Source: Candidatus Bipolaricaulis sp. (GTDB lineage: Bacteria; Bipolaricaulota; Bipolaricaulia; Bipolaricaulales; Bipolaricaulaceae). Taken from it: 12,024 nt of DNA. The position numbers were made by a program, and so were the translations under genes. Under the pieces are notes generated by a model, which saw nothing but the letters and a program-made list of their open reading frames with translations, made no database searches and was not told where the DNA came from. Below, in pieces: positions 1 through 12,024 of the stretch (position 1 is the stretch's first letter; each line of letters begins with the position of its first letter). The stretch is taken from assembly GCA_020062805.1 (NCBI GenBank), contig JAGUVP010000303.1, positions 1 through 12,024 of the forward strand, read 5' to 3'.

Positions 1-503
1 CCCTGGGCTCCCAGACCGACGTCGCCCCCGAGGTCCGCGAACACCCCATCCGACGCCTGGAGGACCGTTTCCCCGTTCACAAGGACCCGAGCCCTCTCGC
101 CGACGAACGCCACGATCACAATCGCCGGAAACGCCACCGCAACCGCCTGGGTCCAGACCTTCTCGCGCCCTCCCGACCATGCCACGAGCGTGACCCCCGT
201 CGCCGATACGCGGGCCTCCACCCACGCATCATCGCTCTCGTACTTCCCGATCACCGACGCCCACTCTCCCTGGACGTGGTCAACCACGACCTCAACGCGG
301 CGGACCGATCCGAGTTCGACCGGAAACAGGGCTCGCCCGCTCTCACCGAGCAGAAGGCCATCGGCAACGGTCCACGTGCCGGACTGGGCCACCCACGAGG
401 CCGCAGCTTCCGGCTGAAACCCCGCGTTCAAGACCGGCCCGCCAACCACGGTCAGGCCAGCCGCGACAAACGCCCCTACCATCCAGAAGATGATTCGCTG
501 CAT
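1..503 (-). CDS. Secreted jelly-roll (LamG/concanavalin A-like) protein, N-terminal part
   Basis: The gene starts at the ATG at 501-503 and runs off the left edge, giving 167 residues with no stop. The start is set by a near-perfect Shine-Dalgarno (AAAGGAGGT) about six bases upstream. Residues 1-27 (MQRIIFWMVGAFVAAGLTVV, then GGPVLNA) look like a signal peptide. The rest alternates short hydrophobic and charged stretches typical of an all-beta fold: SGTWTVADGLLLGESGRALF, then VEARVSATGVTLVAW, then ARVLVNGETVLQASDG, then GGDVGLGAQ. This order (GxWxVxDGxL, a 'V-NGE-VL' hairpin, then 'G-VGL') is that of LamG/3-keto-disaccharide-hydrolase-type jelly rolls, which bind glycans or serve as structural modules. 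It lies 67 bases after the gamma-glutamyltransferase at 571-2280, with a hairpin in between. No catalytic residue can be assigned, and the missing C-terminus could hold an enzyme domain. Confidence 0.7.
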   Translation of the reverse strand, partial: MQRIIFWMVGAFVAAGLTVVGGPVLNAGFQPEAAASWVAQSGTWTVADGLLLGESGRALFPVELGSVRRVEVVVDHVQGEWASVIGKYESDDAWVEARVSATGVTLVAWSGGREKVWTQAVAVAFPAIVIVAFVGERARVLVNGETVLQASDGVFADLGGDVGLGAQ

Positions 504-527
504 CGTACGACCTCCTTTGAAAGAACA

Positions 528-558
528 GGGGAGGGGACCACTTCGCAGTCCCCTCCCC
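528..558 (-). terminator. Hairpin after the 571-2280 gene
   Basis: A perfect 11-base inverted repeat (528-538 with 548-558; GGGGAGGGGAC/GTCCCCTCCCC) encloses a 9-base loop, 12 bases past the stop of the gamma-glutamyltransferase. Reading on the minus strand it is followed by TGTTCTTTC, a weak pyrimidine-rich tail, then the Shine-Dalgarno of the next gene. It could be an intrinsic terminator, an attenuator limiting expression of the downstream gene, or an mRNA-stabilising stem. Confidence 0.6.
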
Positions 559-570
559 AATGAACCACGA

Positions 571-2280
571 CTACGGACCTGCTGCTCCGCCGAGCCGTCG
601 GATGTCGGCCACGCCGATCAGCGTTCCGTCGGCGAGCACCATCACGGCGTTCGTGCCACCGAAGTACACGTCCAAGGGCCCGTACTCCTTGATCGCGTGG
701 CCCACGGCCTTGAGGGCTTCGATCAGACTGGGGGAGAACCCGCCTTCGATTTCCAGGTTCGCCACCGAGTTCCGGCTGTAGTACTTGGGAGCCGTGATCG
801 CGTCCTCGAGGTCCATGCAGAAGTCCACCACGTTGACGATCGTCTCCACGATCACGCCGGGGATACGGCCCGCACCCGGCGTCCCGATCACGAGGAACAC
901 CTCTCCTCCATCGAGAAGGATCGTCGGGGCGATCACCGTGCGCGGCCGCTTGTACGGACCGGCTACGTTGAGGTCGTCGGGCCGATCGGCGCGGTAGGCG
1001 TTGAAGTTCGTGTACTCGTTGTTCAGGACGAACCCGTGGTCGGGGACCACAATCCTGCTTCCCCAGAACGAGCTCAGGGTCTGCGTCAGACTGACCGCGT
1101 TCCCGTCCTTGTCCACCACGCTGACGTGGGTCGTGCACCCGGCATCGGGATCAGTCCCCACACCCACAGGAACCGCGGTCGTGTTGTACTGCAGCGGATC
1201 TCCCACCGGGGTCTTCGAGGGAACGATCGCCGTGCCCAGGGAGATGAGCTTCGCCCGCTCGGCGGCGAACGCCTTCGACGTCAGCCCAGCCACGGGAACA
1301 TCGTAGAAGTCGGGATCCCACACCACGGGATCTCGGTCGGCGAACGCGAGCTTGAGCGCCTCGGCGATGATGTGCACCACCGTCGGGTGGTCGTACCGGC
1401 GGTACCGTGCCAGGTTGAAGTGCTCGATGATGTTCAGCGCCTCGACCACCACCACCCCGGCCACGATCGGAGGAGCGCTGAGGATCTCGTAGCCACGGTA
1501 CGTTCCACGTACCGGCTCCCGTTCGACCGCGCGGTAAGCGGCCATGTCCTCCATCGTGATCCAGCCGCCGGTCGCGCTGACGATCGCCTCCGCGACCGCG
1601 CCCTCGTAGAACACCTCCGCCCCGCCGTCGGCGAGGAGCCGGAGCGTGTAGGCAAGACCGGGGTTCTTGAAGATCGCGCCCTCGTCAGGAACGAGCCCGT
1701 CGGCGAGGAACACCAAACCCAGCTCGGCGTACTTCGGATCGGACAGGTCCTTGTACGCATCGAGGACGCGGGTGACGAATACGGAGTCCACGGGGAAGCC
1801 GTTCTCCGCAAGCTCAATCGCGGGGGCGATGACTTCGGCCAACGTCATCGTCCCGTACTTGGTGAGCACGAGGTCCATCGCCGCCACAGTGCCTGGGATG
1901 CACACCGACTTCTCCCCGTAGGAGTTCTTCGGCGTCTGCGCCGTGACCGCACCCGGAGCCCACGAACGGAAGTCCACCGCCACCTGCGTACCATCAACGA
2001 GGGCCAAGATTACGTACCCTTCGCCACCCAGCCCTGAGGCGTACGGCTCCACCACGCCCAGCGCGAACGACATCGCCACCGCAGCGTCCACCGCATTCCC
2101 GCCCTGAGCCAGGATCTGCGCTCCCACTGCCGCTGCGAGCGGATGCGCGGAGGCCACCATCCCCTCCGTTCCAATGGCCACCTGGCCCGGAACGACTGCC
2201 GTAGCCTGAGCGAGGGCCGGAAGCCCCACCGCCAAAGCCGCCACAAGCAGGCCAACACCTACCGAGAATCGCCTTCTCAT
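571..2280 (-). CDS. Gamma-glutamyltransferase-family Ntn hydrolase with altered pocket
   Basis: A 569-residue exported member of the gamma-glutamyltransferase (GGT) family, which cleaves or transfers gamma-glutamyl groups after autocatalytic splitting into two subunits. The ATG at 2278-2280 follows AAAGGAGGAGG; the longer reading with an arginine-rich extension is unlikely. Residues 1-27 form a signal peptide. Family marks are GGNAVDAAVAMSFALGVVEP, KYGTMTLAEVIAPAIELAENGF, LKLAFADRD, and CTTHVSVVDKDGNAV. In the last, Thr383 (first T of TTH) is the predicted nucleophile and N-terminus of the small subunit. The pocket is unusual. Where Escherichia coli GGT has PLSSM this protein has PRTVI (446-450). 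NNQMDDF is NNEYTNF (420-426), with Asn replacing the key Asp. The SSGG loop is IVAG (272-275), and PGG is PGA. Arg105, matching E. coli Arg114, is kept. I infer autoprocessing is retained but substrate choice differs. It is probably a tandem duplicate of the gene at 2409-4112. Confidence 0.9.
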   Translation of the reverse strand: MRRRFSVGVGLLVAALAVGLPALAQATAVVPGQVAIGTEGMVASAHPLAAAVGAQILAQGGNAVDAAVAMSFALGVVEPYASGLGGEGYVILALVDGTQVAVDFRSWAPGAVTAQTPKNSYGEKSVCIPGTVAAMDLVLTKYGTMTLAEVIAPAIELAENGFPVDSVFVTRVLDAYKDLSDPKYAELGLVFLADGLVPDEGAIFKNPGLAYTLRLLADGGAEVFYEGAVAEAIVSATGGWITMEDMAAYRAVEREPVRGTYRGYEILSAPPIVAGVVVVEALNIIEHFNLARYRRYDHPTVVHIIAEALKLAFADRDPVVWDPDFYDVPVAGLTSKAFAAERAKLISLGTAIVPSKTPVGDPLQYNTTAVPVGVGTDPDAGCTTHVSVVDKDGNAVSLTQTLSSFWGSRIVVPDHGFVLNNEYTNFNAYRADRPDDLNVAGPYKRPRTVIAPTILLDGGEVFLVIGTPGAGRIPGVIVETIVNVVDFCMDLEDAITAPKYYSRNSVANLEIEGGFSPSLIEALKAVGHAIKEYGPLDVYFGGTNAVMVLADGTLIGVADIRRLGGAAGP

Positions 2281-2359
2281 GCGCCTCCTCCTTTGGGCCC
2301 TCTCGGGCCCTCGCGAGTATACACCCAAAACCAGTGCGTGCCCGCACCCTGAACGAAGA

Positions 2360-2408: not shown

Positions 2409-4112
2409 TCAGTAGCCGACGGCGACCCCGAGCCGGCGGGAGTCCGCACCGCCGTACATGACCCCCGCATCGGGATCGAACAGGATGCCCTGCGCCGTGC
2501 CGAACGTGCTGCTCTTCGCCCCACCGGCCAACGTATGTCCAAGCTCCTCGAGCCCGGTCAGAACAGCACTGTCGATGCCCCGCTCGTAAAACAGGTCGCC
2601 GCCTTCCAGAGAGTAGATCCGGAGCTGCTCGATCGCCTCGTCCATCTTCATCCCGTGGTCCACTACGTTCACGATGATCTGGGCGAGGGCGGTGATGATC
2701 CGCGTGGCCCCCGCCGAGCCGACGATCATGAACGGACGACCCTCCGGATCGAGCACGACCGTGGGTGACATCGAGGACAGCGGCCGCTTCCCCGGCTCGG
2801 GGGCGTTGACGCTTGCCGGGTCCTTCGAGAAGTCGTCCATCTGGTTGTTGAGCATGATCCCGTGCTCGGGAACGAAGACGCCACTTCCGAAGAACTGGTT
2901 GATCGTGTTCGTCGCGCCGACGATGTTGCCCGCCGCGTCCACAACGGAAAAGTGACTCGTCGAGGTTAACTCGCCGCCCAGTCCCCCGACCGCATCCGGT
3001 GCCCCCCTGGCCTGGGGCCCGTACATCCAGGGATCACCTGGGCTGACCTGGGTCGCCGCCTGGGTGAGGTCGATCTTGGACGCCAGTTCGCGGGCATAGG
3101 CCTTGGACGTCAGGCCGGCCAGCGGGACGTCTGCGAACGCCGTGTCCGCCATGTACTTACCCCGGTCCGCGAACACCAGCTTCATCGCCTCGGCCATGAT
3201 GTGGAGGGCGACCGCCGAGTTGTGACCCAGCTCCCGCATCGGGAAGTGCTCCAGGATGTTCACGAGCTGCACGATGTGCGTGCCGCCGCTCGACGCGGGG
3301 GGCACGGAGTAGATCTGGTAGCCGCGGTACGTCCCGAACACCGGCTCGCGGGTTTCCATCGCGTAGCCCCGGAGATCGTCCATCGTCATCGCCCCGCCGG
3401 CCTTGTTCACCGCGGCCACGATCGCCTCGCCGATCGGGCCGTCGTAGAACACCTGGGGCCCGTGCTCGGAAACAAGACGGAATGTCTCAGCCAAGGCAGG
3501 CTGGCGGAGGTTCATCCCCGCTCCGATCGGAAGTCCGTCCTCCAGGTACGGCAAGAGGTCCGAAGACGTGTAGGCAAGCAGCTTGGCGAAGCTGTCAACG
3601 ATGATCCCTTCCTGCATCGGGTGGACCACGAACCCTTCCTCGGCAAGGCGGATCGCCGGAGCAGCCACTTGAGCGAACGTCATCGTCCCGTACTTCTCGA
3701 GGGCGGTCCACATCCCCAAGAGCCAGCCCGGCACACCCACCGACCTCCCGCCCAACGAAGACCAACGCTCGGCCTTCGCCTGGTCGGAGGCGTACATGTC
3801 CGTCGTCGCCGAGGCCGGGGCGACCTCGCGGTAGTCGAGGACGATCACCTCACCCGTCGCCGCGAGGTAGACCGTCATGAATCCCCCGCCGCCGATGCCC
3901 GAGGCGTTGGGCTCCACCACGTTCAACGCCAGCGCCGTGGCCACCGCCGCGTCCACGGCGTTGCCGCCCATCTGGAGGATCTCCACCCCGGCCCGGGAAC
4001 CCAGCTCGTGGGCCGAGGACACCATCCCCTGCCGGGCGATCACCTCATCGGCCAGAGAGAAGGCTCCCCCCAGAACCACGGTCCCAGCTATCCATGCTAG
4101 AGTCCTCCACAC
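2409..4112 (-). CDS. ggt: Gamma-glutamyltransferase, canonical active site
   Basis: A 567-residue gamma-glutamyltransferase, close to the usual family length. Translation starts at a GTG (4110-4112); GGGAGGTGG lies upstream at good spacing and no ATG competes. Residues 1-21 (MWRTLAWIAGTVVLGGAFSL plus A) form a signal peptide. The large-subunit part holds GGNAVDAAVATALALNVVEP, DYREVAPASATTDMY (Arg95 would bind the substrate carboxylate), and PPASSGGTHIVQLVNILEHF. The predicted nucleophile is Thr385 in STSHFSVVD, where cleavage would create the small subunit. Substrate-binding marks are intact: NNQMDDF (422-428), KRPLSSMSP (442-450), and GSAGATRI (465-472), where the usual second Gly is Ala. 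The family hydrolyses glutathione and other gamma-glutamyl amides; CapD of Bacillus anthracis is a member acting on poly-gamma-glutamate. Here the enzyme is extracytoplasmic. Upstream lies a gap with a decayed gene, so this and the next two genes may form their own transcript. Confidence 0.93.
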   Translation of the reverse strand: MWRTLAWIAGTVVLGGAFSLADEVIARQGMVSSAHELGSRAGVEILQMGGNAVDAAVATALALNVVEPNASGIGGGGFMTVYLAATGEVIVLDYREVAPASATTDMYASDQAKAERWSSLGGRSVGVPGWLLGMWTALEKYGTMTFAQVAAPAIRLAEEGFVVHPMQEGIIVDSFAKLLAYTSSDLLPYLEDGLPIGAGMNLRQPALAETFRLVSEHGPQVFYDGPIGEAIVAAVNKAGGAMTMDDLRGYAMETREPVFGTYRGYQIYSVPPASSGGTHIVQLVNILEHFPMRELGHNSAVALHIMAEAMKLVFADRGKYMADTAFADVPLAGLTSKAYARELASKIDLTQAATQVSPGDPWMYGPQARGAPDAVGGLGGELTSTSHFSVVDAAGNIVGATNTINQFFGSGVFVPEHGIMLNNQMDDFSKDPASVNAPEPGKRPLSSMSPTVVLDPEGRPFMIVGSAGATRIITALAQIIVNVVDHGMKMDEAIEQLRIYSLEGGDLFYERGIDSAVLTGLEELGHTLAGGAKSSTFGTAQGILFDPDAGVMYGGADSRRLGVAVGY

Positions 4113-4177
4113 CTGCTACCACCTCCCAGAAGATGACGCACACTCTGAAGTGTAGCCCCCCTGGCGGGGCAAGCCCC

Positions 4178-4395
4178 TCAGCGTATGGGGGTCTTCGGCC
4201 CTGAAGACCGTCTTCCTGGAAACCCTCGCGATCCCACGACAATGGCTAGAACCAACGTCAGGTACACCGCCCCTACGGTGGGGAACGGAACCCATGCCTT
4301 GGAGACCGTGCCGGCGTAGAAGTACCCCGCGCCGGGACGGGGAAGCGGTGAAGGATTCTACGGGAGCCCGTAGTGGGCCACCTGGAGCCCCAAGA
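4178..4395 (-). pseudogene. Decayed C-terminal copy of the 11710-12024 gene
   Basis: The minus-strand frame reads YGLP, TAG (4358-4360), then NPSPLPRPGAGYFYAG, VPFPTVGAVYLTLVLAIVVG and GFPGR, ending at a TGA at 4178-4180. The intact gene at 11710-12024 reads YGLPWDPSPLPRPGEG, FPFHVLAGVYLASIAGLAVA and LVPGR. The stop stands where the intact copy has Trp (TGG to TAG). A stretch of 23 bases is identical (4332-4354 and 11846-11868). The remnant keeps the YGLP-DPSPLPRPG motif and the C-terminal membrane helix. Upstream of about 4395 similarity is lost and the frame has another stop (TGA, 4448-4450), so the N-terminal bulk is gone. I read it as a degenerated duplicate of the poly-gamma-glutamate-system-like gene. 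It fills most of the 340-base space before the gamma-glutamyltransferase pair. The 65 bases from 4113 to 4177 hold only that gene's ribosome-binding site and a 5-base stem (ACACT/AGTGT). Confidence 0.8.
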
Positions 4396-4452
4396 CACAG
4401 TCCTTACCTGGGTGAGCACCGGCGTCTGTCTGACGTGCTTCCGTGCCTCAAC

Positions 4453-5619
4453 TCACTCGTATACAACCTTGCTTGCTGAGGCGGTTGCGGGGTCTTGGAA
4501 GAAGTACCCGGTGCCATTCGCCACAACATCGGCATAGCGGGGCACGCTTGTCACAACCAGGGGCTTTGAGCGGTTGAACAACGTCCAGAACTCGGCGATC
4601 TTGAGCACAGTCGAACAGTGTCGCCCCACCCGAGCGTCGATCGGCCAGCCGCTCTCGTCAATTGGCCAGTACAGGAGCCCGAACTCCCCTGCCTTCATCA
4701 CGAATTCATCCTTTCCCGTAAGGAGCAACGACTCATCGGTGATTCCCCGCACCCGATCGAGAAAGGGCTGGGGGGTCTCAGCCAGAAGAGCCGGAGCGTT
4801 GGAATGGTCGCCGATCTCGCGATGCGACAGACCGTGCAATGCCAGGGGAGAGATCTCCATCCCAATGCGGAATTCCTCGGCCGTAAGCGTCATCGAGGCC
4901 ATGGCGGCAATCCTCAACGCCTTCTGATGAGCAACGATCGTCCCGATGATCGGGTATTCGAGTTCCGCTTCGTGGAGATCAATCACGATGTCCACGCCCT
5001 CTGCCTCAATCAGCCGCATGAACGCGTAGCAGGTCTGCTCGGCGAGGCTCCCATTGGACCGGCCAGGCCACGTCCGGTTCAGGTTGCGCACATCCATGTA
5101 GGCCAGAAGCTGGCCACTCGGGAAATGAACGTAGGTTTCTGGATCCGGCCACGAATCGAGCGGATTCGCCCACCGGTCCCCCATGCGGAACTTCTTGATC
5201 CCCCAGTCGGTCTCGATGTGGAAAAACCGCGGGTAGGCGTCTCCAGGGCGGGTAACAGTCGATGCGCTTGGATTGCTGTGAATGACGACGATCAGCTTGC
5301 CCTGCTCGACCGTGGCATTCTCCACCAAGAGATGGGCAGTCAAGCTCGTCGCGGGTTCTTCAGGGTGCGAGGCACCTAGAACGAGCATCGTCCCCCCTGG
5401 CTCCCCGCTGTCCAGGATGAACACGTTGGCGTCGTTAGGACCACCCTTGAGCGGAGCGAAGTAGTCCCCCAAGGTTCTCACTGTGGTCACCCCCGGGCCG
5501 AGGACCACCTCCTCCTTGAAGTTGCGGTGTTGAGCAAACGCGATACCCGCCAGGACAAGGATTGTGCCCGTGACAGCCATCGCGATCCCTTTGATCGTCC
5601 ACTCCTTGTTCAGTCTCAT
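4453..5619 (-). CDS. Succinylglutamate desuccinylase/aspartoacylase-like (M14) zinc hydrolase
   Basis: A 388-residue metallo-hydrolase of the M14-like succinylglutamate desuccinylase/aspartoacylase group, which removes acyl or amino-acid groups from amide-linked substrates. The ATG at 5617-5619 follows GGGAGG at five bases; a GTG 27 bases upstream is less likely because it would touch the preceding stop. Residues 10-29 form a signal anchor or signal peptide ending in FAQ, so the enzyme is probably outside the membrane. Zinc ligands are the HxxE pair His85/Glu88 in GASHPEEPATS and His216 in DIVIDLHEAE. The substrate-binding motif is NLNRTWPG (179-186), and the probable catalytic Glu is Glu281 in LLAETPQPF. 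It sits 26 bases behind the small membrane gene and belongs with the transporter genes upstream. The substrate is unknown; an N-acyl or gamma-linked glutamate derivative is inferred from its neighbours. Confidence 0.82.
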   Translation of the reverse strand: MRLNKEWTIKGIAMAVTGTILVLAGIAFAQHRNFKEEVVLGPGVTTVRTLGDYFAPLKGGPNDANVFILDSGEPGGTMLVLGASHPEEPATSLTAHLLVENATVEQGKLIVVIHSNPSASTVTRPGDAYPRFFHIETDWGIKKFRMGDRWANPLDSWPDPETYVHFPSGQLLAYMDVRNLNRTWPGRSNGSLAEQTCYAFMRLIEAEGVDIVIDLHEAELEYPIIGTIVAHQKALRIAAMASMTLTAEEFRIGMEISPLALHGLSHREIGDHSNAPALLAETPQPFLDRVRGITDESLLLTGKDEFVMKAGEFGLLYWPIDESGWPIDARVGRHCSTVLKIAEFWTLFNRSKPLVVTSVPRYADVVANGTGYFFQDPATASASKVVYE

Positions 5620-5645
5620 CGCGGCCTCCCGTCCCTCTCCGATCA

Positions 5646-5795
5646 CTATTTCAGCCGGAACAACCTCAGCACGAATGGCATCAACACGGCGAGGTACAAG
5701 ATGCCCTTCTGCACGTCGCGGGTCTTGATGAAGTTCCGCACCAAGATCACAGTGAAGAGCGCCGTTATCACGTAGTACAGCACCATGACCGCCAC
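5646..5795 (-). CDS. Tiny two-helix membrane protein
   Basis: A 49-residue protein lies between the transporter and the zinc hydrolase. I chose the GTG at 5793-5795, about six bases after the GGAGG that follows the transporter's stop. The alternative ATG at 5784-5786 would give 46 residues but leaves about 15 bases between the Shine-Dalgarno and the start. Two hydrophobic segments (VLYYVITALFTVILV and GILYLAVLMPFVLRLF) flank a basic loop, RNFIKTRDVQKG, and the tail is RLK. It follows the transporter by 11 bases and precedes the hydrolase by 26, so all three should be translated together. A role as a small transporter subunit or stabiliser is inferred from position and topology. It is far shorter than a TRAP small permease (DctQ), and I recognise no family. 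Confidence 0.7.
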   Translation of the reverse strand: MAVMVLYYVITALFTVILVRNFIKTRDVQKGILYLAVLMPFVLRLFRLK

Positions 5796-5806
5796 AGCCA
5801 CCCTCC

Positions 5807-7135
5807 TTACCCGCCGACCAGGAACCCGAGTCTGCTGCTGAACACGACGAACAGCGACCCCAGCAACAACACGAACGCGGCCGGTACCAGACACGTCTTC
5901 GCGAAGCCCGAGTAATAGCGCCCTTTGAAGCCCAAGATCATCACCGTGGCGCGGCCGACGACGCTTGTTGGCGGGAGCATATCCCCAACCGGCCACATCG
6001 CCGCCATTCCCGCCAGCGCGATGATCGGGTTGAACCCCTTCATGTTGAACAGGAGGATCAGCGGAACACCGATCAGCGGAGCTACGGCATATTGGATCAG
6101 ACCCTCCGAAACGGGGAGGATGATGAATAGAGTGGCGAAGATCGCCACGAGGGGCATTGTCACAATGCTCAACGAGATCAGACCGCGCGCTCCACTCAAC
6201 GCCATGACTTGAACAAGGATGCCCACGACGACCATCACTCCAACAAGCGGCAGAAGCTGTTCCACTGTATCCGAGATGACCTTGATCAGCTTGAGCTGGC
6301 CGAGGTTCGTGAGCACAACAATGGCCGCGGCGATCATGAACATCAACGGAAGTCCCAACACAGGCATCGCCCATGGCCAGACACGCCCAGCAGCGATAAG
6401 GCCGAACAGGACAACAAACGGAACAACCACCTTCCACCACCTCATCCCACGCGGCGGCTTCGGGAGTTCCGTCATGATCTGCTCCAGATCGATGGGAGTC
6501 CCTCTCCAACCGAGGTAGAACATGCTGAACAGAGCACCCAACACAGAAAGCACACCTAACGGTAGGAAGAAACCGACGTAGGGCATGTTCGACCCAGCAG
6601 CAGCCATCATCGCCCAGAGGTTGATCGGCGGGGCAGCCGCACTCATCGCTGCGCACATGAAGACGATAGCTGTGACACGAACTTCGCTGACTCCCATATA
6701 GGTGAGCACAGTCCCGACCAGTGCGCCCACAACGAGCACCGTCACGGTCCCCGACCCCGTGAGCGCTCCCGGAATGAGCATCACGACGGTCAGGAACAGA
6801 AGGGCAAGCGCCCGGTGGCGATGGAACCGGCGAACGATACCCCGCACGATATACGCCACGCCGCCTGCATCCTTGAGAAGGTTCATGAACAAGGTTGCAG
6901 TCAGGAAAATCAGGACCACGTCGAAATAGGTGAACGCTCCATCGACAATATGGCGCGGCACCTCGAACCAGGCGAATGCGCCGACGAGCTCACGTGACGG
7001 GACCACCAACCCATGAACAATCAGCCCAGCAAGGGCCGCCCCAAGCATGGCCAGTTCAGTACTCAGCTTGAGGAACCTCGCCAAGGCGAAGACAAGTACG
7101 ATGACTCCAAGAACGATCCCCGCGTGGATGTACAC
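5807..7135 (-). CDS. IT-superfamily transporter (TRAP large-permease/DctM-like)
   Basis: A 442-residue inner-membrane protein with roughly ten to twelve hydrophobic segments. It starts at GTG (7133-7135) with GAGGTG five bases upstream. The first half carries a glycine/serine-rich turn, PGALTGSGTVTVLVVGA (about 122-138), followed by AAMSAAAPPINLWAMMAAAG (162-181). The second half has MWPVGDMLPPTSVVGRA (380-396). Paired small-residue/PP loops of this sort are the substrate- and Na+-binding hairpins of the ion-transporter superfamily, which includes DctM, DcuC, CitMHS and GntP types. These import or exchange carboxylates. A hydrophilic central loop (about 209-233, GWRGTPIDLEQIMTELPKPP) separates the halves. 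No DctQ or classical DctP gene is beside it; instead a DUF6305-type secreted protein lies upstream and a 49-residue membrane protein follows. Carboxylate or acidic amino-acid transport is inferred; the exact subfamily is uncertain. Confidence 0.78.
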   Translation of the reverse strand: MYIHAGIVLGVIVLVFALARFLKLSTELAMLGAALAGLIVHGLVVPSRELVGAFAWFEVPRHIVDGAFTYFDVVLIFLTATLFMNLLKDAGGVAYIVRGIVRRFHRHRALALLFLTVVMLIPGALTGSGTVTVLVVGALVGTVLTYMGVSEVRVTAIVFMCAAMSAAAPPINLWAMMAAAGSNMPYVGFFLPLGVLSVLGALFSMFYLGWRGTPIDLEQIMTELPKPPRGMRWWKVVVPFVVLFGLIAAGRVWPWAMPVLGLPLMFMIAAAIVVLTNLGQLKLIKVISDTVEQLLPLVGVMVVVGILVQVMALSGARGLISLSIVTMPLVAIFATLFIILPVSEGLIQYAVAPLIGVPLILLFNMKGFNPIIALAGMAAMWPVGDMLPPTSVVGRATVMILGFKGRYYSGFAKTCLVPAAFVLLLGSLFVVFSSRLGFLVGG

Positions 7136-7276: not shown

Positions 7277-7888
7277 CTAGTTCATCCCGAACAGGATCGG
7301 AAGGAGCCTCTGCAGATCGAGCGTCTTCTCGATGAAGATCTGGGGGATTCCCTTCTCTTCGGCGATCCTGGTGAAGTATCCGTCGTTGTTGACATCGCTC
7401 CGCGTGATCAGCAGATCTGCCTCCGGGGTCATCGCCCGGATGGATTTCTCATCGGACTCGTCCGTTCGGCGAGACGGACCCTCGATCTGCGCCACAATGA
7501 TGGTCACCCCGAGCTCGCGTGCCGCCGCGATCAGCGCAAGGCAACGCTTGACCTCGGAGTCCACGTCCACCCCCGCCGCCCCCATCCCTTTGAGGCTGGT
7601 TCCTGTGATGATCACCAGGACGTTCCACGCCGTGTCTCCGGTGCATTCGCTGACAAACTCCTCCACCGTGAGTAGCTCCCGTTCTTCACAGGGTATCCCG
7701 GCGGTGTCGCAGATCACATCGAACATCAGAGCGCCTGGCCCCTGACCGCAGGTGGTGACAACGATCGGCAGCTTCAGAAGGGGGAGGTTCCCGGGAATGA
7801 CGAACCCGTCCACCGTCTGCTGGGCGGCGGCCGTCCCCATGAAGACGCATGCAACCGCTAGAAGCCCGAACCCCAGCTTCGCTTTCAT
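7277..7888 (-). CDS. Secreted DUF6305-type protein
   Basis: A 203-residue exported protein. The ATG at 7886-7888 has GGAGGT five bases upstream, and residues 1-22 (ending TAAA) are a signal peptide. It matches the DUF6305 pattern as I remember it: VVTTCGQGPGALMFDVI (43-59), VIITGTSLKGMGAAGVDVD (92-110), VAQIEGPSRRTDESDEKSI (132-150), then SDVNNDGYFTRIAEEKGIP (164-182). The alternation of hydrophobic strands and glycine loops suggests a Rossmann-like alpha/beta fold. The TCGQGPGA and GTSLKGMGAAG loops are candidate ligand-binding sites. No biochemical function is known to me. It lies 141 bases before the transporter and after two secreted dipeptidases, so a periplasmic ligand-binding or presenting role for the transporter is plausible but inferred. 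Confidence 0.75.
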   Translation of the reverse strand: MKAKLGFGLLAVACVFMGTAAAQQTVDGFVIPGNLPLLKLPIVVTTCGQGPGALMFDVICDTAGIPCEERELLTVEEFVSECTGDTAWNVLVIITGTSLKGMGAAGVDVDSEVKRCLALIAAARELGVTIIVAQIEGPSRRTDESDEKSIRAMTPEADLLITRSDVNNDGYFTRIAEEKGIPQIFIEKTLDLQRLLPILFGMN

Positions 7889-8000: not shown

Positions 8001-9671
8001 CTACTTCTCGTCGTTGTAGATGATGTCCTTGTACAGAGCGGGATTGGTTGTCTTCGCGTAGTCCACAGCCTCTAGCCACCAGCTGGGGTAGACCCTTGCC
8101 ACCCTTCGTCCGCCCTGGGAGACATAGCCATCGCTGTACTTGGCGATCAGCGTGTCGGCGAGGTCCCACCACGCGGACACCACGCGGTTCACCGCGTCGC
8201 TCGAGTAGTTGGTGAGGAACGTAACCGCCAGCTTCGGATCGGTGTTGTAGAGCGCCAGGGCTGCCTGTTCGACAGCCGGCTGCATCGCGAAGAACTCGCC
8301 CTCGAACTTCTGCTGCAGGGCCCGGACGTCCTGGATGATGTACGAGTACGCAAGGTTAGACCAGTTCTCGACGAAGTCGAACGCCCACCAGGCCGACTCC
8401 CGGGAGAAGGTGAAGATGTCTCGTACCTGCAGCGACTTAGGCACCTCGGTGATGCCGCAGTACAGCGGTATGTAGCAGGTCGTGTGCGGAGCGTCTTCGC
8501 CAAACCACAGGACGCCACCGATCGGGTTCGGAAGCCAGTTGCGGGATTGCGACACAAAGGAATACGAACAGCGGAACATGGAGATCGCTCGCTCCCAGTT
8601 CGCCCCGCCGGCAGCGTTGGCAGTCGGCCATCGGTCCGGTGCTCCGTACGGGCCGGCAGCGAGACCCTGGGTGAGGTCGAACTCCGTTCCCTCGTAGTAG
8701 TCCCTCTTGATGGCCATCAGATCGGCCACAGAGACCAGCTCGTCCGGCTTGACAGAGAACGGGTACTTCTTCGCGTACGGATCGAACTCGAGCGATGGGG
8801 CGAGGATGTCGAACACCCGCCACTCCCGACGGCTGTTGTAGAACCCTTCCTTCGGTCCATACACGTCGTCGAACCTGAAAGCGACACCGCTGTCCGGGCT
8901 CCACCACCCCATCTCCTGTCCAAGCGTGTAGATGTTGGGCGAAGCCATGAACCAGTCGGGCTGGTTGAGGTCGATCTCTCCGATCCGGCTCCGGTTGGCG
9001 CCTACGTACACGTGATCATCCGGAATCCGCTGGGCAACCCAGACCGCACCCGGCTTCCCGGAGTCCGGGGTCCAGAGGACGCCTGGCCCCATGATCTCGA
9101 AGATCCAGGCCTCGTTAGGATCGCAGACGCTGAGCGTCTCGCCGCCGTCGATATACCCGTACTTCTCGGCGAGGGCCCCCATGATCTGGATCGCCTCTCG
9201 GGCGGTCGTTGCCCGCTGGAGACCGAGCGCCTGGAGCTCCTCGATGTAGAAGAGCCCGTTCGTGTTACGCAATTCCCGGCGACCACCCGTGGTGTGCTCC
9301 CCCATCATCACCTGATGCTCGTTCATGAACGGATAGGCGATGTGAAAGTACGTATACGTGACCTCGACCTGGGGGATCTCGCCCAACACTCGGGGCGGAG
9401 AAGTCGGGTTGTCTCGTAGCCGTCCCGCGTACACCTTCACCATCTCCCCAGGCTCATGGGTCCCGCCCGGGATCACCCAGACCTTGGGATCGTACCATCC
9501 ATCGCAGGTGTGGGTCGTCATGACCGAACCGTCCACGGAAGCGTTCTTGCCAACGGCAACCACGGTGCAGTTCTCGGTGCAACCCTCCTCGTCCTCCCAC
9601 ACCCCCTGCGCAGCCCCTAGCCACGACACCACGAACAGCCCAGCTACCAACAACATTCCAACTCGACGCAT
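8001..9671 (-). CDS. Secreted peptidase family C69 dipeptidase (second copy)
   Basis: A 556-residue protein of peptidase family C69 (PepD-type dipeptidases of the Ntn-hydrolase fold). The ATG at 9669-9671 follows GAGGAGGG. Residues 1-22 are a signal peptide (cleavage near GAAQG), then a short acidic segment VWEDEEG. The predicted nucleophile is Cys35 in CTVVAVGKNASVDGSV, which must be exposed as the N-terminus by removing the pro-segment; a nearby Cys31 is unusual. Further family marks are MTTHTCDGWYDPK (51-63), YPFMNEHQVMMGEHT (113-127), TAREAIQIMGALAEKYGY, CDPNEAWIFE (183-192), GANRSRIGEIDL, and RNWLPNPIGGVLWFG. Near the C-terminus are SAWWAFDFVENWSNLAY and a final segment of about 45 residues absent from the upstream paralogue. 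It probably cleaves dipeptides or short peptides in the periplasm. It is a clear tandem paralogue of the gene at 9807-11369, 135 bases away. Confidence 0.92.
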   Translation of the reverse strand: MRRVGMLLVAGLFVVSWLGAAQGVWEDEEGCTENCTVVAVGKNASVDGSVMTTHTCDGWYDPKVWVIPGGTHEPGEMVKVYAGRLRDNPTSPPRVLGEIPQVEVTYTYFHIAYPFMNEHQVMMGEHTTGGRRELRNTNGLFYIEELQALGLQRATTAREAIQIMGALAEKYGYIDGGETLSVCDPNEAWIFEIMGPGVLWTPDSGKPGAVWVAQRIPDDHVYVGANRSRIGEIDLNQPDWFMASPNIYTLGQEMGWWSPDSGVAFRFDDVYGPKEGFYNSRREWRVFDILAPSLEFDPYAKKYPFSVKPDELVSVADLMAIKRDYYEGTEFDLTQGLAAGPYGAPDRWPTANAAGGANWERAISMFRCSYSFVSQSRNWLPNPIGGVLWFGEDAPHTTCYIPLYCGITEVPKSLQVRDIFTFSRESAWWAFDFVENWSNLAYSYIIQDVRALQQKFEGEFFAMQPAVEQAALALYNTDPKLAVTFLTNYSSDAVNRVVSAWWDLADTLIAKYSDGYVSQGGRRVARVYPSWWLEAVDYAKTTNPALYKDIIYNDEK

Positions 9672-9806: not shown

Positions 9807-11369
9807 TTACAACCTGAACAGAAGCGTGTCCACCAGGTTCCACCACAGCTGCTCAGCCTTCAGCATGTACGTGTAGGTGAAGTTGGTCAGAAGCTGCACC
9901 GCAGCCTTGGGATCTGTGGCGTACATGAGCGTTGCTGCCCGCTCGACTGCCGCATACGTGGTGTTTATCTCGTCCTGGAAAGGATCCTTGACCCCGTCCA
10001 GAACGGGTTTGAGGTTGCCGTATCGTTGGTTGACCAGGGTATCGGCGATGTCAAACGCCCACCACGCCGAGTTCCGATCGAACTTCGTCCGGTCAAGCAC
10101 TGTCCACGACACTGGGACTTCCTCAATCCCCACCCAGACCGGAATCCACGGGCTGGTCGCAGGGTTATTGAGGCCAAACCACGCCACAGCCCCGATCTCG
10201 TTGGGTAGCCAGTCGCGAACCTGACCAACGAAAAAGTACGAGCAGGTGGAAATGGCGATCTTGCGAGCGGGACTCAGACCCAACCAAGCAGCCATTCCCG
10301 ACAAGGCCTGAACCTGTGGTGTGGCATAGGGGGATTTCACCCGATTCCCTCGACTGTCCGTGTAATACCAGACTTCAGCTTCAGTGATGTCGTACTCCGT
10401 CCCTTCGAGCACGTCGTGGTAGATCTCGATGATGTCTGCTAGAGAGAGAAGCTTGTCCGGCTGGAAGGAGAATGGGTAGTTGGGCACATCTTCGATCTGC
10501 CAGTTCCCCGATGGAGCGAGCAGGTTGAAGAGCCGCCACGTCCGGTAGTCAAGTGAGAGTGGCCGGACGTCCCTGTACACGAACCTCCACACGAACGGTT
10601 CACCGCTGGCCGGATCGTAGAGGCCGAGCTCGATAGCGCAGCTCATGTAGTTGCTGCTGACCATGAAGTTCTCAGTGTCGTTGGGATCGATCTCGCCGAT
10701 CCTGCTCCGATTCGGCTGAACGGCAACATGTCCATCAGGCACCCTCGCAGCAACCCAGACCGCCCCGGGCTTCCCACTGTCGCGGGTCCACAGGGGGCCA
10801 ACCGGGTAGATCTCGAACAACCACACCTCATTCGGGTCAGCGATCGCAAGTCCCTCTCCGGTGTCAGCGTACCCGTACTTCTCGGCCAGCTCGCCCATCA
10901 CGAGGATGCATTCCCGAGCTGTCTTCGCCCGCTGAAGACCGAAGTACTCCAGCTGTTCGATGTACATGATCGCTTCATCCAGGTTCGGTGCCAGGACTGA
11001 TGCGCGGCCGATCGTGTTCTCGCCGATCATGACCTGGTGCTCATTAGCGAATGGGTAGGCGATCTTGAAAATCTTGTAGGTGTGTGGAACCTCTGGGATC
11101 TCGCCGAGCTTGACCATCGGCGGGTACTGACTGAACTCCGGATACGCTCGGATCATCCCTTTCCACACAGAAGCCATCGTCCCTGGCGCATGATCTGCCG
11201 CTGGAACGATGATCAGCCGAGAGTCATACGCACCATCACAGGTGTGCGTCGTGATCACCGAACCGTCTACCGTCGCCCCCTTGCTCACCAGTACGTCGGT
11301 ACACGGAAAAGCTAGCACTCCAAGGATGGCCACCAAGATGAGCACAAACCCTGTCTTCACTGCCACCAT
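9807..11369 (-). CDS. Secreted peptidase family C69 dipeptidase (first copy)
   Basis: A 520-residue C69-family dipeptidase. I chose the ATG at 11367-11369, preceded by GGGAGGGGGGAG; the GTG 27 bases upstream would lie across that purine-rich site. The N-terminus MVAVKTGFVLILVAILGVLA, then FP, is a signal peptide, and Cys23 follows at once in CTDVLVSKGATVDGSV. Signal-peptide removal alone could therefore expose the nucleophile. Other marks are ITTHTCDGAYDSR, YPFANEHQVMIGENT, RAKTARECILVMGELAEKYG, DPNEVWLFEIYPVGPLW, DSGKPGAVWVAARVPDGH, NRSRIGEIDP, and RDWLPNEIGAVAWFG. The protein ends at WWNLVDTLLFRL, about 45 residues earlier than the paralogue at 8001-9671; the sequence after its stop does not resemble the missing tail, so this looks like a true shorter form. 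It is probably a periplasmic dipeptidase whose specificity differs from its sister. Confidence 0.92.
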   Translation of the reverse strand: MVAVKTGFVLILVAILGVLAFPCTDVLVSKGATVDGSVITTHTCDGAYDSRLIIVPAADHAPGTMASVWKGMIRAYPEFSQYPPMVKLGEIPEVPHTYKIFKIAYPFANEHQVMIGENTIGRASVLAPNLDEAIMYIEQLEYFGLQRAKTARECILVMGELAEKYGYADTGEGLAIADPNEVWLFEIYPVGPLWTRDSGKPGAVWVAARVPDGHVAVQPNRSRIGEIDPNDTENFMVSSNYMSCAIELGLYDPASGEPFVWRFVYRDVRPLSLDYRTWRLFNLLAPSGNWQIEDVPNYPFSFQPDKLLSLADIIEIYHDVLEGTEYDITEAEVWYYTDSRGNRVKSPYATPQVQALSGMAAWLGLSPARKIAISTCSYFFVGQVRDWLPNEIGAVAWFGLNNPATSPWIPVWVGIEEVPVSWTVLDRTKFDRNSAWWAFDIADTLVNQRYGNLKPVLDGVKDPFQDEINTTYAAVERAATLMYATDPKAAVQLLTNFTYTYMLKAEQLWWNLVDTLLFRL

Positions 11370-11709
11370 GTCTCCCCCCTCCCGAGAAAGGATCACCCTT
11401 CGGCCGCAGGCGGCGAGCGTACCTCAGAGGCACAAACGACCGCCCTGCAATCACAACTGCCCACCAGCGCGATCTTGGCTCTCACCCCCTCGGGCACAGA
11501 GAGATGGCTGCGTTGGGTAGTCTAGCGCCGCCCCAGGCATTAGCAAGTCCTTGCAGATATTAACACCTCCGTGAGGGCTGACGCGATACCGGAACAGCCC
11601 CTCTTAAGGCCCGCCCCGCGCTGTGTGACGCGAAAGCCCCAGGATGATGATCACAGACGGAATTCAGACGACCCTTCAGTAAGTGGTAGCTAGACGGCGC
11701 ATCGGTTGG
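11370..11709. other. 340-base intergenic region, possible promoter
   Basis: I find no convincing gene, RNA or repeat here. Minus-strand frames are interrupted, and none resembles the neighbours. The purine-rich ribosome-binding site of the first dipeptidase lies at its left end. The best minus-strand promoter-like pair is TTGCTA (11541-11546) and TAGACT (11519-11524) with a 16-base spacer, four of six matches each; this is weak. No terminator hairpin is evident after the gene ending at 11710. The length and lack of coding make it the likeliest promoter site for the downstream genes. Confidence 0.35.
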
Positions 11710-12024
11710 CTACCTGCCTGGAACAAGACCCCGGCGGACAACTCGCCAGGCCACAGCGAGACCGGCAATAGAGGCCAGATACACCCCCGCAAGGACGTGG
11801 AACGGGAACAACGGCCTTGAGCTGTATGTGACCATGTGTCCCTCTCCGGGACGGGGAAGCGGTGAAGGGTCCCAGGGAAGACCGTAGCGGGTGGTCAAGC
11901 CTCGCATGTTCAGAAGGTGGACGAGGGGGATGCCGGCGGCGGCCATCGCCAGCGCCACACCGCGCCCTGGACCCTCGGGGACCACGGTCAGCACGTTCAG
12001 CCCCGGCTGGAGCGTGAGCACGGC
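11710..12024 (-). CDS. Poly-gamma-glutamate-system-like membrane protein, C-terminal part
   Basis: The last 104 residues of a gene whose start lies beyond the right edge; the GTG at 12019-12021 is taken as an internal Val. Visible parts are a glycine-rich stretch (VVPEGPGRGVALAMAAAGIP), then LVHLLNMRGLTTRYGLPWDP, SPLPRPGEGHMVTY, and a C-terminal membrane helix (FHVLAGVYLASIAGLAVAW) with a basic tail, RVVRRGLVPGR. The 'HLLN...YGLPxDPxPLPxPG' pattern with a terminal helix is what I remember from proteins annotated 'poly-gamma-glutamate system protein'. That identification is from memory and moderate in certainty. The helix and positive-inside tail suggest the bulk of the protein is outside the membrane. 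A decayed copy of this same end lies at 4178-4395. Its family implies a link to gamma-linked glutamate polymers, which suits the gamma-glutamyltransferases and dipeptidases downstream. Confidence 0.6.
   Translation of the reverse strand, partial: AVLTLQPGLNVLTVVPEGPGRGVALAMAAAGIPLVHLLNMRGLTTRYGLPWDPSPLPRPGEGHMVTYSSRPLFPFHVLAGVYLASIAGLAVAWRVVRRGLVPGR

Follow-up and report, generated by a model that had tools for sequence, protein, structure and literature searches.

A decayed pgsW-like gene end between a zinc hydrolase gene and a gamma-glutamyltransferase gene in a putative poly-gamma-glutamate-type cluster of Candidatus Bipolaricaulis

The spacer (4113-4452) between a zinc hydrolase gene and the first of two gamma-glutamyltransferase genes in a contig of Candidatus Bipolaricaulis sp. 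holds, judging from sequence comparison, a pseudogene fragment of a pgsW-like gene: a broken copy of its last ~60 codons (4178-4377). The history we favour for it, with about as much belief as doubt, is that it marks the seam left when a six-gene block carrying C69 family peptidases was inserted between a resident pgsW gene and the gamma-glutamyltransferase genes that had followed it.

The window (the whole stretch of DNA analysed, 12,024 nucleotides) is the entire contig G000:C123 of an assembly of 1.7 Mb in 330 contigs that is 73% complete. Read along the minus strand, it carries the end of the pgsW-like gene, the two peptidases C69a and C69b (presumably Ntn hydrolases), a DUF6305 protein, a transporter, a small protein, the zinc hydrolase, the spacer, the gamma-glutamyltransferases GGT1 and GGT2, and a protein without family match (Table 1). 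“pgsW-like” stands for the family model TIGR04332, “poly-gamma-glutamate system protein”; pgsW is the name we take this gene to bear. The relatives used for comparison come from a search of 100 genomes of the class, the window's own genome (G000) included: G010 and G002 are nearer relatives that share the window's outline, G003 belongs to the same genus, and G059 and G092 belong to another family. The small protein between the transporter and the zinc hydrolase has no Pfam or NCBIfam match and is 64% identical to its counterpart in G059 and 60% to that in G092. In G010, G002 and G003 the GGT block continues with counterparts of the protein at 3-560.

Table 1. Features of the window, with the corresponding spacers of two relatives
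Feature	Position	Strand	Remark
pgsW-like gene	11710..12024	minus	C-terminal 104 codons; cut by contig end
C69 family peptidase a (C69a)	9807..11396	minus	family match
C69 family peptidase b (C69b)	8001..9671	minus	family match
DUF6305 protein	7277..7888	minus	family match
Membrane transporter	5807..7135	minus	weak match to Na+/H+ antiporter family
Small hydrophobic protein	5646..5801	minus	51 aa; counterparts in G010, G002, G059, G092
Zinc hydrolase	4453..5646	minus	succinylglutamate desuccinylase/aspartoacylase type; final gene of C69 block
Stretch separating zinc hydrolase stop from remnant	4378..4452	minus	4394-4452 without detectable pgsW similarity
pgsW remnant	4178..4377	minus	YGLP, TAG stop, NPSPLPRPGAG, hydrophobic tail, closing TGA
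In-frame TAG	4358..4360	minus	Trp TGG in the genes of the window, G010, G002 and G003
Identical block	4332..4354	minus	23 bases, identical to 11846-11868
Gap from remnant stop to GGT1	4113..4177	minus	65 bases; likeness to pgsW downstream region not convincing
Gamma-glutamyltransferase 1 (GGT1)	2409..4112	minus	G003 orthologue directly behind intact pgsW
Gamma-glutamyltransferase 2 (GGT2)	571..2328	minus	
Protein without Pfam or NCBIfam match	3..560	minus	cut by contig end
Zinc hydrolase-GGT1 spacer of G010	L028 13228-13661		
Zinc hydrolase-GGT1 spacer of G002	L027 14093-14533		

The remnant's frame runs for 59 open codons from the TAG to the TGA at 4178-4180, and an in-frame TGA lies upstream at 4448-4450. 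Of the two remaining frames across 4178-4378, one has three stops and one has none, so the openness of this frame alone says little. The match to the contig-end gene covers 4326-4377 against 11840-11891 (83% identity over 52 bases; E 1.8e-8 in a whole-genome DNA search), and none of 2000 dinucleotide-preserving shuffles equalled its local score of 59 against 11397-12024 (maximum 34). The identical block within it is exact and has no third occurrence in the window. A preliminary description made from the letters alone had reported this minus-strand frame with its hydrophobic stretch, the alignment to 11710-12024 and the change from a tryptophan codon to TAG, and all three hold on direct reading. 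Within the same genome, a DNA search returned only the contig-end copy and the remnant itself, a search with pgsW sequences from across the class returned the contig-end copy only, and the TIGR04332 model found only 11854-12021, at 36 bits against a cut-off of 100 (the gene being cut by the contig end). The model does not detect the remnant in this genome, because its coverage stops close to where the remnant's stretch begins. Searched against five relatives, the whole spacer matched only the pgsW ends of G002 (63 bases, 86%) and G010 (119 bases, 72%), with no match at E 0.01 in G003, G059 or G092.

Similarity extends past the proline-rich motif, the point on which the preliminary description had proposed that its reading be checked. 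With the hydrophobic tail taken by itself, shuffled proteins reached the observed score in 10 of 2000 trials against the window's gene, 3 of 2000 against that of G010 and 1 of 2000 against that of G002, and none of 505 control windows of other membrane proteins did so in any of the three comparisons; at the DNA level the corresponding shuffles numbered 5, 1 and 10 of 1000. Against G010 and G002 the tail aligns without gaps over 30 residues (0/5000 shuffles each). The likeness to G003 is weak: 290/2000 shuffles were as good in the gapped protein comparison, 82/505 control windows and 425/1000 shuffles of the DNA, and the motif DNA is not significant either (104/1000), although one test, an ungapped, in-register protein alignment over 30 residues, speaks in its favour (equalled by only 17/5000). 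The remnant is closer to the pgsW genes of the window, G010 and G002 than to that of G003. Among more distant pgsW genes, the shuffles as good as the tail comparison were 42 of 2000 for G033, 340 for G047, 346 for G053, 609 for G092, 840 for G059 and 1659 for G014.

The remnant is shorter than was first proposed. The preliminary description had placed it at 4178-4395 and proposed translating from 4452, and this stands as far as about 4377, where the pgsW match stops; the bases up to 4395 or 4452 are not demonstrably pgsW-derived, 4394-4452 giving no pgsW match (shuffles as good, of 1000: 377 against the window's gene, 894 for G010, 330 for G002, 116 for G003 and 488 for G059). The 5′ part of pgsW has left no trace at the seam. 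At the other end, an extension into the region that follows pgsW was tried and is not claimed: of 1000 shuffles, 16 did as well against the window, 58 against G010 and 220 against G002, and the placements differed. Across the 17 motif codons, changes at codon positions 1, 2 and 3 number 2, 2 and 6 against G010 and 1, 2 and 3 against G002; over 48 codons against G002 they number 14, 18 and 21, a nearly even spread of the kind expected where coding constraint may have been absent during part of a sequence's history. Over 48 codons the remnant shares 63% DNA identity with the G002 or G010 gene, whereas G002 and G010 share 91%, and the remnant is therefore older than the split between those two. 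A tree of C-terminal pieces that included it gave no resolved placement because its branch is long. The similarity past the motif, the in-frame stop with the missing 5′ part, and an intact orthologue at the same site in G003 together point to a pseudogene fragment of a TIGR04332 gene, which agrees with the original view of the spacer as a decayed C-terminal piece of a poly-gamma-glutamate-system gene.

How such a piece came to lie there is best approached through the relatives. A pgsW match at E 1e-10 is found in 10 of the 100 genomes and GGT1 at E 1e-100 or better in 6; at 77% identity or more, GGT1 is present only in the window, G010, G002 and G003, and the matches in G059 and G092 (42-43% identity) lie on other contigs. 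In G003 the order is secA-pgsB-pgsC-pgsW-GGT1-GGT2-unnamed-DUF6305-zinc hydrolase-transporter-zinc hydrolase, and its intact pgsW ends 16 bases before the orthologue of the window's GGT1, the sort of copy in a related genome that the preliminary description had suggested looking for. In G010 a single contig carries secA-pgsB-pgsC-pgsW, then C69a-C69b-DUF6305-transporter-small protein-zinc hydrolase, then the GGT set. G002 has a similar outline on two contigs, with the break inside the transporter. Its C69 block (L044 9667-16841) differs in detail from that of the window and G010: it opens with C69b, after which come a C69 gene only 51% like C69a and two DUF6305 genes. G059 and G092 have pgsB-pgsC-pgsW, about 1.2 kb, and then C69b-DUF6305-transporter-small protein-zinc hydrolase, with neither a GGT nor a C69a counterpart on the stretches examined; five of the six C69-block genes have counterparts there at 60-72% identity. 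Other arrangements occur as well: pgsBCW divergent from a GGT gene (G053, G047), a zinc hydrolase gene immediately preceding pgsBCW (G033 and G014, on short contigs), and, outside the phylum, a Desulfobacteraceae record (L056) in which DUF6305-GGT-transporter-zinc hydrolase faces pgsC, pgsB and pgsW on the opposite strand. Family models confirmed SecA, PgsB, PgsC and TIGR04332 in G010 and PgsB, PgsC and TIGR04332 in G003, the intact TIGR04332 genes beside PgsB and PgsC scoring 308.7 bits in G010 and 309.3 bits in G003 (cut-off 100).

G003, G010 and G002 all begin with secA-pgsB-pgsC-pgsW. Given this common start, fewer losses need to be assumed if the C69 block was inserted behind one resident pgsW. 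In a tree of nine pgsW rows (midpoint root), G010 and G002 join G003 (96/99), apart from the C69-linked genes of G059 and G092, which makes the pgsW now standing before the C69 block one of the resident type; taken with secA upstream in G003, G010 and G002, this means that the C69 block most simply came in behind a resident pgsW. A fragment bearing the block (C69a, C69b, DUF6305, transporter, small protein and zinc hydrolase), similar to the one that follows pgsBCW in G059 and G092 (where C69a is missing), would have recombined with the resident pgsW close to its 3′ end. The outcome would be a full pgsW upstream and a 5′-truncated pgsW end at the far side of the block, and the truncated end would then have decayed through point mutation. 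No product or function of its own is predicted for it. We infer recombination here purely from the anatomy of the locus; none of the 10 window proteins scanned matched a recombinase or integrase family. This reading is limited by the truncation of the window's pgsW at the contig end and by the spread of the G002 locus over two contigs. Also against it are the remnant's lesser likeness to the pgsW of G003 than to those of the window, G010 and G002, and the lack of a C69a counterpart in the G059 and G092 stretches examined.

The direction of change could also be the reverse, G003 having lost the C69 block. On this account the composite order would be the older one, and the block would have been removed by recombination between the two pgsW 3′ ends, which flank it in the same orientation at a distance of 7.5 kb; the class does contain pgsBCW-C69 loci (G059, G092), and the G003 tail is slightly remnant-like when held in register (17/5000). 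With gaps allowed it is not detectably so (290/2000), although a likeness would be expected if the G003 end derived from the remnant's, and the deleted state occurs in no second genome examined. We consider this history very improbable.

A possible, if clearly less probable, alternative to the insertion is the one first put forward, in which the locus held two complete pgsW copies, one before the C69 pair and one before the GGT pair; a deletion would have removed the 5′ part of the second, which then went on to decay. Part of that proposal stands: pgsW occurs intact before GGT1 in G003 and before C69 genes in G010, G002, G059 and G092, so that both positions exist. The gap-free alignment of the tail over 30 residues (0/5000 shuffles against G010 and G002) fits it too, and the DNA divergence of about 37% from the G002/G010 gene suggests a sequence long separate, so that age speaks for it somewhat; the remnant's age, on which the insertion reading is vulnerable, is equally that of a second gene that diverged while working. 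The claim of two complete copies in this locus fares less well: there is no 5′ trace at the seam, the even spread of changes over codon positions (14, 18 and 21 of 48 against G002) gives little sign of long coding constraint, both copies occur together in no relative examined, and G010 and G002 lack the remnant.

That last observation bears on the insertion reading as well, since G010 and G002 share the window's outline and a further loss or replacement is then needed. Their zinc hydrolase-GGT1 spacers (434 and 441 bp) are 89% alike and unlike the window's, and they have no counterpart in G000 or G003. They contain no pgsW remnant, with local scores of 21-27 against the pgsW DNA of G010, G002 and G003; in the same comparison the window's spacer scores 70 against G010, 81 against G002 and 23 against G003. 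The difference is not confined to the spacer. From about 5000 to 2130 the window carries a divergent allele, 39-92% identical to G002 and 46-88% to G010 in steps of 100 columns (a patch in G010 excluded). Its edges are graded, one falling within the zinc hydrolase gene and the other within the 5′ part of GGT2, and identity in the flanks is mostly 90-100%. The patch, in GGT1 of G010 at about 3872-3472, matches the window at 91-99%. A second assembly thus shares that part of the allele, which makes an artefact of assembly less likely there, and the divergent allele and the patch together indicate that the stretch has been exchanged among relatives. If the block was inserted as proposed, G010 and G002 would have lost the remnant when their spacer was replaced, or it may instead have arrived in the window with the divergent allele. 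A wholly imported junction, in which spacer, GGT1 and flanks came with the pgsW end by homologous recombination from an unsampled relative, would account for a divergent allele set between more similar flanks. We think it unlikely: the divergence starts inside the zinc hydrolase, so the donor would already have had the order zinc hydrolase-remnant-GGT1, and the remnant's origin would only be shifted to another genome and not explained.

The spacer might instead be kept for something it does, as a short membrane peptide, a regulatory RNA or the promoter region of GGT1. A peptide could use the 59 codons that stay open past the TAG, where GTG and TTG codons might serve as starts, but one other frame is open too, and in G010 and G002 the spacer has no match except to their pgsW ends; this explanation seems to us scarcely credible. 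For an RNA, the window has no Rfam match at gathering scores, and 4113-4300 folds no more strongly than shuffles (z -0.19). No sigma-70-like site lies in 4050-4520, and the single terminator-like site, at 4077-4062, falls inside GGT1.

Truncated gene remnants are a known kind of sequence in the spacers of bacterial operons, and this one resembles them in that the 3′ end of a gene is kept, interrupted by a nonsense codon, and the 5′ part is missing, while an intact copy precedes the neighbouring gene in a relative. It departs from them in that the locus also holds a stop-free relative of the gene, separated from the remnant by a block of six genes. The intact genes of G010 and G003 conform to a TIGR04332 gene accompanied by PgsB and PgsC, whereas the remnant falls outside the model. 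A second known kind is Campbell-type integration, or duplication of a target end by integrative elements, which leaves the 3′ end of the target on both sides of the insert. Here the block has a pgsW end on either side, at 11840-11891 and at 4326-4377, which may be of this sort, though the two are 83% alike and show no defined boundary or precise repeats, and no recombinase family was matched. A bolder reading is that the two pgsW 3′ ends serve as recombination handles by which whole hydrolase blocks (C69, GGT) are swapped behind a shared pgsBCW core. The remnant would then be a used handle, G003 would represent the condition in which the C69 block is absent, and G059 and G092 that in which the GGT block is absent; we regard this general scheme as quite unlikely. 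At the level of search listings, literature searches for PgsW with poly-gamma-glutamate, for Bipolaricaulota with gamma-glutamyltransferase, and for combinations of pgsB, pgsC, gamma-glutamyltransferase, remnant and pseudogene found nothing, and the name of the TIGR04332 family led to one paper, which by its title concerns a mutation in Francisella.

The remnant is a pseudogene fragment of an ordinary kind, with no function indicated, and it is informative on how a putative poly-gamma-glutamate-type cluster, so named on its family matches, was assembled. In this composite cluster two hydrolase sets that are found apart in relatives share one poly-gamma-glutamate-type core, and the remnant would be their seam. 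This arrangement ties both sets, C69 and GGT, to a common core, and comparison of further genomes could test whether they are interchangeable. As a separate observation, the matches to a second zinc hydrolase in the relatives (L013, L014, L007) each contain one in-frame stop, TAG in G002 and G010 and TGA in G003, which may lie only upstream of the true start.
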